Shown: in pieces, positions 4,292 through 60,806 of the stretch | How the letters are laid out: each line of letters begins with the position of its first letter | How positions within the stretch are numbered: the stretch's first letter is position 1 | DNA from: Aequorivita todarodis | GTDB lineage: Bacteria > Bacteroidota > Bacteroidia > Flavobacteriales > Flavobacteriaceae | Direction of reading: 5' to 3' | DNA: 64,000 nucleotides | NCBI RefSeq assembly: GCF_028561335.1 | Contig: NZ_JAQQTG010000016.1 | Location: forward strand, 129,704 to 193,703 | The notes under the pieces: model-generated | Database searches by the model: none | Seen by the model: the letters and a program-made list of their open reading frames with translations, nothing else | What the model was told of the DNA's origin: nothing | Translations under genes and position numbers: made by a program

Positions 4292-4323
4292 TTTGCCTTG
4301 CAAGTTAAAAAGAAATATATTTG
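4292..4323 (+). promoter_or_regulatory. Bacteroidota-type promoter of the tRNA-Arg array
   Basis: TTTG at 4292-4295 and TATATTTG at 4316-4323 are separated by 20 bp. This matches the Bacteroidota -33/-7 consensus (TTTG and TAnnTTTG). The predicted start lies about 25 bp before the first tRNA-like copy. No other obvious promoter precedes the true tRNA, which suggests one transcript for all three units. Confidence 0.65.
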
Positions 4324-4348
4324 CACCCGCTTAAAGCGAAATTAATTC

Positions 4349-4449
4349 GGCCTTGTGGCGCATCCCGATAGCTATCGGGAGAATAGCGCACCCCGAACTC
4401 GATTCGGGAAGGTTCCAGGTTTCCCCGAAGCGTCGGGGCTGGCAAGACC
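4349..4449 (+). pseudogene. tRNA-Arg-like copy 1 with hairpins in the arms
   Basis: Aligned with the true tRNA at 4625, the copy keeps acceptor GGCCTTG, the TG linker, D-stem GCGC/GCGC, variable AGGTT, T-stem CCAG/CTGG and a 3' acceptor strand CAAGACC (one C-A mismatch). Three segments differ. The D-loop gains TCCCGATAGCTATCGGGA, the whole anticodon arm is replaced by a CCCGAA...TTCGGG hairpin, and the T-loop gains CCCCGAAGCGTCGGGG. No normal TTCGAA-type T-loop remains, so translation activity is unlikely. Processing by RNase P remains possible because the acceptor and T stems persist. Confidence 0.8.
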
Positions 4450-4486
4450 GCAAAAAACTGCGAAGTTTTAAAAAATCTGAAATAAT

Positions 4487-4587
4487 GGCCTTGTGGCGCA
4501 TCCCGATAGCTATCGGGAGAATAGCGCACCCCGAACTCGATTCGGGAAGGCTCCAGGTTTCCCCGAAGCGTCGGGGCTGGCAAGACC
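4487..4587 (+). pseudogene. tRNA-Arg-like copy 2 with hairpins in the arms
   Basis: It is identical to copy 1 except C4551 for T4413 in the variable region, which reads AGGCT instead of AGGTT. The same three hairpins sit in the D-loop, anticodon arm and T-loop. The near identity of the copies means the hairpins were present before the last duplication, or that the copies are being homogenised. Confidence 0.8.
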
Positions 4588-4624
4588 GCAAAAAACTGCG
4601 AAGTTTTAAAAAATCTGAAATAAT

Positions 4625-4698
4625 GGCCTTGTGGCGCAACTGAATAGCGCACCTGATTACGGCTCAGGAGGTTCCAGGTTTGAATCCTGGCAAGGTCA
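4625..4698 (+). tRNA. tRNA-Arg (anticodon ACG)
   Basis: A full cloverleaf is visible. Acceptor GGCCTTG (4625-4631) pairs with CAAGGTC (4691-4697), with one G-T wobble. The D-stem is GCGC/GCGC, the anticodon stem CCTGA/TCAGG encloses TTACGGC, and the T-stem CCAGG/CCTGG encloses TTTGAAT. The discriminator is A4698. ACG at 4659-4661 reads CGU and, after deamination of A34, CGC and CGA. The CCA end is not encoded. It is the last unit of the array started by the promoter at 4316. Confidence 0.95.
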
Positions 4699-4708
4699 CA
4701 AAAAACAG

Positions 4709-6850: not shown

Positions 6851-6870
6851 ATGCCCGCGAAGGCGGGTAT
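6851..6870. repeat. CCCGC/GCGGG palindromic element at the tpiA start
   Basis: ATGCCCGC-GAAG-GCGGGTAT forms an 8-bp stem with a tetraloop directly upstream of tpiA. It is of the same type as the element inside the RidA-family gene at 52121. Confidence 0.7.
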
Positions 6871-19475: not shown

Positions 19476-19507
19476 TCCCCGAAGCCAAACTTCGGGGATT
19501 TTTTTTA
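19476..19507 (+). terminator. Rho-independent terminator after rho
   Basis: TCCCCGAAG (19476-19484) pairs with CTTCGGGGA (19490-19498), followed by eight or more T. The rho gene itself thus has an intrinsic terminator. Confidence 0.92.
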
Positions 19508-60744: not shown

Positions 60745-60806
60745 GAAATCTTCATTTCATCCGTTAGTCCCGATAGCCTTCGGGAGCGGAAATAAATGAA
60801 GATTTC
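60745..60806. repeat. Nested hairpin with CCCGA/TCGGG tip
   Basis: Outer arms GAAATCTTCATTT and AAATGAAGATTTC (13 bp, perfect), middle arms TCCG and CGGA, inner arms CCCGA and TCGGG. It lies 20 bp past the M1 peptidase stop and may end or protect that mRNA. Confidence 0.85.

Follow-up and report, generated by a model that had tools for sequence, protein, structure and literature searches.

It is probable, if by no means certain, that the two hybrid units preceding the tRNA-Arg(ACG) gene of Aequorivita todarodis are relics, that is, non-autonomous and tandemly amplified ends, of a GIY-YIG homing element which invades tRNA genes through putative cutting by its nuclease. The units lie in a stretch of 64,000 nucleotides (the window), and the tRNA-Arg(ACG) locus of the window contains no nuclease gene. 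Each unit is 138 bp long (4349–4486 and 4487–4624), the two are 99% identical, and the tRNA-Arg(ACG) gene follows next in register, an arrangement proposed in the initial annotation and confirmed by alignment. The features of the locus are as follows:

4316..4348, plus strand: promoter-like TATATTTG and leader, normally abutting tRNA-Arg in congeners (conserved among congeners; distance counts)
4349..4449, plus strand: hybrid unit 1, a full-length tRNA-Arg copy with three hairpins (alignment, flank search)
4363..4380, plus strand: D-loop hairpin TCCCGATAGCTATCGGGA of unit 1 (sequence reading)
4391..4409, plus strand: hairpin replacing the anticodon arm of unit 1 (sequence reading)
4423..4438, plus strand: T-loop hairpin CCCCGAAGCGTCGGGG of unit 1 (sequence reading)
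4450..4486, plus strand: spacer of unit 1, recurring before the true tRNA (alignment)
4487..4587, plus strand: hybrid unit 2, 99% identical to unit 1 (alignment)
4501..4518, plus strand: D-loop hairpin of unit 2 (sequence reading)
4529..4547, plus strand: anticodon-arm hairpin of unit 2 (sequence reading)
4561..4576, plus strand: T-loop hairpin of unit 2 (sequence reading)
4588..4624, plus strand: spacer of unit 2 (alignment)
4625..4699, plus strand: intact tRNA-Arg(ACG) (ARAGORN, Rfam)

We take TATATTTG to be a promoter element from its likeness to the Bacteroidota -7 consensus. When the array was put to tRNA models, as had been advised with the initial annotation, the third copy (4625–4699) was the only tRNA called by ARAGORN and by Rfam (gathering threshold); judged by such recognition, neither hybrid unit is a functional tRNA gene.

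In both units TCCCGATAGCTATCGGGA stands in for ACT of the D-loop, CCCCGAACTCGATTCGGGA for the anticodon arm (nucleotides 27–43) and CCCCGAAGCGTCGGGG for GAATC of the T-loop. The three hairpins of a unit differ from one another and have the CCCGA/TCGGG stem in common. The initial annotation had all three positions filled by such hairpins. All three are indeed present, and the anticodon arm is wholly replaced, but the D-loop, which retains GAATA, and the T-loop are replaced in part only. Its statement that the acceptor, D and T stems are kept is nearly correct; in each unit the acceptor stem has a single mismatch (C3-A70) and the T stem is shorter by one pair, unit 1 being the one scored.

The units were sought in 59 genomes, namely the own genome of the window (G000, Aequorivita todarodis) and 58 relatives. 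Beyond G000, strong matches were found in G022, a sister species, and G026, a third species, and nowhere else in this set, so that the search of related genomes suggested at the outset did recover hybrid units or fragments. The G022 locus has two units related to, but different from, those of the window: unit A combines a near-native anticodon arm with a D-loop hairpin and a T-loop hairpin that is slightly decayed, while unit B possesses an anticodon-arm hairpin, a decayed T-loop hairpin and a D-arm which is partly lost. In G026 the tRNA variant of that genome is represented by two 5' fragments at a distance of 80 bp, both with the identical D-loop hairpin. Since G022 has different units at the same locus and G026 has 5' fragments with the same D-loop hairpin, an assembly error, against which the initial annotation had cautioned, is an unlikely source of the window array. 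Counting G000 itself, 28 genomes of the genus were considered, and in 27 the 300 nt upstream of tRNA-Arg(ACG) could be read; because arrays occur in three of these and a single tRNA-Arg in 24, the array is variable and probably young. The leader starts 27–29 nt from the tRNA in 22 of the 24 single-tRNA genomes.

Within G000 the pattern CCCGAN{2,9}TCGGG has 114 sites, as against 10 for the same pattern read backwards, and these hairpins are therefore not due to chance (the hairpin positions used are the first places among the 114). A search of the flanks of all 35 G000 tRNAs, made without selection for hairpins, revealed 15 partial tRNA copies, 14 of them with CCCGA-type hairpins. All five copies in G022 also carry such hairpins; in G002 there are 23 copies of mixed kinds, a list that takes in matches of three false tRNA-Gln calls. 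The reverse-complement control gave none in G000, none in G022 and eight in G002.

The G000 copies involve several tRNAs. At tRNA-Leu(TAG) there are five 57-bp 5' fragments with D-loop hairpins, and single upstream fragments occur at Gly(TCC), Trp and Gly(GCC), a further one being recognised by eye at Ser(TGA). On the downstream side, 3' copies with a hairpin in the T-loop or anticodon arm were found at Thr(GGT), Pro(GGG), Phe and Val(TAC), and by eye at Val(GAC). The copies at tRNA-Ser, Val(GAC) and Asp are diverged and, like a second Pro copy, were recognised by eye only. Eighteen of the 114 G000 hairpins fall in copies from the flank search, with a few more by eye, and most lie elsewhere.

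Among 25 readable genomes of the genus, tRNA-Leu(TAG) is accompanied by hairpin fragments in three and by a hairpin-free 5' fragment in four, with neither in the remaining 18. In the four (G010, G011, G016 and G018; loci L257, L260, L258 and L251) the remnant has the acceptor sequence GCAGGCG and stands before a tRNA-Leu with acceptor GCGGGCG, which suggests a possible replacement of alleles. The 3' fragments that stand in tandem at tRNA-Thr, Met and His of G002 (L295, L301 and L314) likewise have no CCCGA hairpins; they are preceded by other sequence, around CCTGAGC...GTCGAAGG or a variant of it.

One D-loop-hybrid pattern was scanned over 84,980 species genomes and gave 114 stretches, and by title all 80 of the 80 listed belong to Bacteroidota; relatives with named records among the matches include Aequorivita lipolytica and A. 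vladivostokensis. These stretches were found by their D-loop pattern, and statements on hairpin position rest on the flank search and the GIY-YIG loci described below. The 80 listed stretches hold 107 hybrids, 94 with a tRNA on the same strand no more than 1 kb downstream, and eleven tRNA identities are involved. With tandem copies entered singly, the acceptor 7-mer agrees with that of the next tRNA at 7/7 positions in 83 of the 94, at 6 of 7 in eight and at fewer in three, and the exact match stops no more than 4 nt past the D-arm in 76 of the 94 fragments. In an even draw of the phylum the exact pattern was present in 2 of 395 Bacteroidota genomes, own included, and in the viral contigs searched it was absent. 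The pattern is rare yet recurrent, and because it is nevertheless spread over many tRNAs and lineages a repeated origin of the hybrids is suggested. A tRNA array of Chryseolinea sp. H1M3-3 (L133, 523–2643) includes a tRNA-Gly call (607–699) which contains a CCCGA hairpin, as well as an uncalled tRNA-like unit with paired stems and hairpins in its D- and T-loops.

The evidence for a nuclease comes from other tRNA loci. Two tRNA genes of G000, those of tRNA-Phe and tRNA-Val(TAC), are each followed by a small GIY-YIG gene and then by a hairpin-bearing partial tRNA copy. A third such nuclease gene adjoins tRNA-Leu(TAA) at a contig end; of the six small GIY-YIG frames in this genome, the other three have no tRNA nearby. 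The protein possesses a GIY-YIG domain (PF01541, E 1.5e-13). NCBIfam gave only a below-cut-off match to a group I intron endonuclease, none of the solved structures matched the protein, and no match at E<=1e-5 was found for the G000 protein in 50,697 phage records. Of 295 genomes of the class, 78 contain relatives of the G000 protein (E<=1e-10), a sporadic distribution.

Fifty GIY-YIG loci were read. They are not a random sample, being the 30 best plus 20 picked from other rows, some of these for being tandem. Y, Y.G, R, H and E are conserved in their alignment. Of the 50 loci, 39 are preceded by a tRNA on the same strand at a distance below 300 nt, and 34 of these 39 have a partial tRNA copy (reverse-complement copies, as a control, in 2 of 39). 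A hairpin lies within 26 of the 34 copies, and none was found in the other eight. When an exact tRNA 3' tail was required, copies were found at 11 of the 23 tRNA-adjacent loci among the 30 best. Small GIY-YIG genes of Bacteroidota often stand in the order intact tRNA, terminator, nuclease gene and partial tRNA copy, the copy mostly having a perfect hairpin in at least one loop or arm. At many loci hairpin-bearing fragments, single or repeated, are all that is present.

Hairpins were detected as perfect stems with shuffled sequences as the control. Perfectly paired stems of 6 bp or longer are present in 33 of 39 distinct inserts, with 0.69 expected from the shuffles. A set of 33 hairpins was aligned, consisting of 28 of the 32 strings from GIY-YIG loci plus five from G000 and G002, with one trimmed; the four strings dropped were two cut short at their ends, one native T-arm and one lacking the TCC end. 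Stem changes occur on both sides at pairs 2, 4, 5 and 6, although their Watson-Crick pairing is partly by construction.

Tandem forms of such loci also exist. At tRNA-Val(TAC) of G002 a terminator, a GIY-YIG gene and a tRNA copy in which TCCCGAACTTGCTTCGGGA replaces the anticodon arm make up a unit repeated in tandem, and a similar unit, likewise in tandem, is found at tRNA-Arg(TCT). The tRNA-Arg(ACG) of another genome (L332) carries a GIY-YIG element. GIY-YIG matches lie inside 10 of the 80 listed D-hybrid stretches; none was detected in the other 70, the stretches being up to 8 kb long. In Salinimicrobium sediminilitoris (L160) the order is a 5' fragment of tRNA-Met with a D-loop hairpin, a GIY-YIG gene and an intact tRNA-Met. 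At the tRNA-Asn of Bacteroidetes bacterium UKL13-3, 5' fragments lie upstream, 11 in number, and GIY-YIG genes and 3' fragments form an array downstream; in the two downstream units which were read the 3' fragments have CCCCGATAGCTATCGGGG as T-loop. Going by these few loci, upstream fragments are most simply regarded as relics of the junctions of such elements. At a further locus (L351, genome G542) ten tandem GIY-YIG genes with a period of 457 bp lie beside tRNA-Met; no hairpin was found when sought in the tRNA copies there.

An empty site was recognised at tRNA-Phe. In G022 the tRNA, its terminator and the flank are uninterrupted. In G000 the GIY-YIG gene and a hairpin-bearing T-arm intervene before a repeated tRNA 3' tail and terminator, which are found 370 bp downstream, and the same flank follows (141 of 150 positions identical to G022, counted from the tRNA tail).

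Based upon these arrangements we would picture the following sequence of events. The nuclease would cut in a loop or an arm of a tRNA gene, and repair would copy the element in, the element itself making good the lost stretch of tRNA and thereby preserving one intact gene. The displaced remnant would bear a hairpin in place of the target loop and would presumably be neither cleavable nor a functional tRNA. Repeated cutting or unequal recombination might then amplify the units in tandem, and loss of the nuclease gene would leave arrays such as that of the window, with all three loops sealed. We infer the cutting in loops, the homing and the block of re-cutting from the GIY-YIG domain and the behaviour of the phage nuclease SegB. 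It counts against the scheme that the intact tRNA, which is not displaced, ought still to be open to cutting: a hairpin replaces the loop in 26 of the 34 leftover copies, and the neighbouring intact tRNA is unaltered. The three small GIY-YIG frames of G000 that lack an adjoining tRNA also count against it. Read as a T-loop, the SegB motif fits 13 of the 35 G000 tRNAs, and as tRNA-Arg(ACG) is not among them this motif is at best an analogy.

The initial annotation had considered that a family of palindromic elements inserts into tRNA loops. In so far as hairpins do occupy loop or arm positions beside several G000 tRNAs and in other Bacteroidota this was borne out; what it lacked was the association with GIY-YIG genes and the junction copies. 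One might still regard the hairpins as independent REP-like palindromes which insert at loops of structured RNA genes and are tolerated in tRNA copies because an intact tRNA adjoins, with the GIY-YIG genes a separate user of the loci concerned. We judge this rather unlikely. It would account for the excess of G000 hairpin sites (114 to 10), so few of which lie in flank-search copies, for two hairpins within a cobalamin riboswitch match and for the tRNA array whose tRNA-like units contain hairpins. However, the hairpins beside GIY-YIG genes vary widely in stem sequence, as copies of a single mobile palindrome would not, the ends of the fragments cluster directly past the D-arm, and the empty tRNA-Phe site fits an element junction. 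An independent hairpin family nevertheless stays a serious rival because the window has no nuclease, 70 of the 80 D-hybrid stretches are without a GIY-YIG match, most hairpins lie elsewhere, and some copies are hairpin-free or contain another repeat.

The riboswitch match (L070, C7:57609-57685 of G000) was one result of an Rfam search of 20 loci, most of them around CCCGA hairpins; besides this single hairpin-holding cobalamin riboswitch it returned tRNAs and one ribosomal-protein leader.

Ordinary slippage or recombination might also duplicate pieces of tRNA genes, breaks in the loops being healed by capture of any genomic repeat. Hairpin-free duplicates, as at tRNA-Leu of the four congeners, and the other repeat at the G002 array junctions are what such a process would leave. 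We regard it as improbable, since beside GIY-YIG genes 33 of 39 inserts are perfect hairpins against less than one expected and copies accompany 34 of the 39 tRNA-adjacent nuclease genes.

Because the units sit between the conserved promoter-like leader and the tRNA, their co-transcription with the latter is plausible from the sequence. The folding suggested as a check showed them to be better folded than shuffles, if modestly so (unit 1, z -1.65; unit 2, z -2.56). For unit 1 a cloverleaf with hairpins (-42.1) is about equal to the minimum energy (-42.2). The three hairpins, their stem sequence being common to them, cross-pair in the predicted folds, and a clean cloverleaf non-coding RNA was considered and set aside on this account, despite the near-equal energy in unit 1. 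The initial annotation also proposed that the units had become structured RNAs transcribed together with the tRNA. A function of the units as such RNAs, perhaps as decoys or leader elements, is very improbable in spite of their position behind the leader, the near-minimal cloverleaf of unit 1 and the z value of unit 2, for they are missing in 24 of the 27 readable genomes, copy number and replaced arms vary between G022, G026 and G000, the z value of unit 1 is slight, and most fragments elsewhere, with 76 of 94 ending their match so soon after the D-arm, form no cloverleaf.

Relics of tRNA-invading nuclease elements, the reading we prefer, may be compared with several known systems. Genomic islands with tyrosine integrases that reside in tRNA genes carry replacement tRNA sequence, so that one copy is intact and a partial copy lies at the other end. 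The elements described here share both features. They differ in that the tRNA-Phe element, at about 370 bp, has room for a small GIY-YIG gene but not for an integrase, and in that the leftover tRNA copy bears a hairpin. Mitochondrial double-hairpin or repetitive hairpin elements are sited in loops of RNA genes, and are similarly mobile hairpins in or near structured RNA genes; they are organellar, whereas the present hairpins are bacterial, and we know of none linked to partial tRNA copies with a nuclease gene.

The closest parallel is phage SegB. The account of this GIY-YIG homing nuclease describes cutting within tRNA genes and a need for SegB in tandem amplification of the tRNA-segB segment (PMC13096335); another account gives its target as a tRNA intergenic region (PMC2988022). 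As there described, the free-standing SegB of T4 and T6 resembles the Bacteroidota loci in that the GIY-YIG nuclease gene lies beside tRNA genes, and differs in being phage-borne (PMC13096335), the Bacteroidota genes lying in bacterial genomes. Its preferred motif RAWTSGAAC (PMC13096335) is GTTCSAWTY on the other strand, which we read here as T-loop-like. The word hairpin is absent from the main text on SegB (PMC13096335), and the hairpin-replaced tRNA copy, a feature of the present loci, is not met in the passages on SegB of either account (PMC13096335, PMC2988022). In the open-licence PMC literature searched we recognised no description of hairpin-bearing tRNA copies beside GIY-YIG genes.

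The hairpins also resemble REP/RAYT sequences, which are described as short repeated palindromes in many copies, also inside genes (PMC3733652). Membership of this class was rejected: the GTAG/CGTC foot tag of its description (PMC3733652) was seen in none of the 83 readings of the 5 nt that precede CCCGA at G000 loci, and the four Y1_Tnp matches, one of them below cut-off, are not flanked by CCCGA repeats. A single CCCGA hairpin lies at the edge of one 3.3-kb Y1_Tnp locus, with none in the other three.

On a wider and more tentative view, which we think possible rather than probable, these would be minimal mobile elements present throughout the phylum. A lone GIY-YIG domain of some 80–100 amino acids would home into tRNA loops, restore the tRNA on one side and set at the cut loop a hairpin, of DNA or RNA, which would serve as a structural end or as a mark of immunity, and hairpin-bearing non-autonomous ends would amplify in the manner of tRNA-specific miniature elements. 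If so, the tRNA genes of a major bacterial phylum would have been invaded repeatedly by very small nuclease elements, whose scars would be hairpin-closed pieces of tRNA, and odd arrays of tRNA pseudogenes and some false tRNA calls would be explained. The elements would be bacterial counterparts of SegB-type tRNA-gene nucleases, and would offer a compact system for testing how a selfish nuclease spreads through essential genes without killing its host.

Elsewhere in the window further CCCGA...TCGGG hairpins occur at 19478–19496, where a T run follows, and at 60769–60784. A different short palindrome, the REP-like GCCCGCGAAGGCGGG, lies at 6853–6867 in the gap between two ORFs. At the tRNA-Val locus L302 of G002 (C1:1926200-1929800) the hairpin-bearing tRNA-Val copies pass the Rfam cut-off and are called tRNA-Gln(TTG) by ARAGORN; copies of this type are a likely source of false tRNA annotation.
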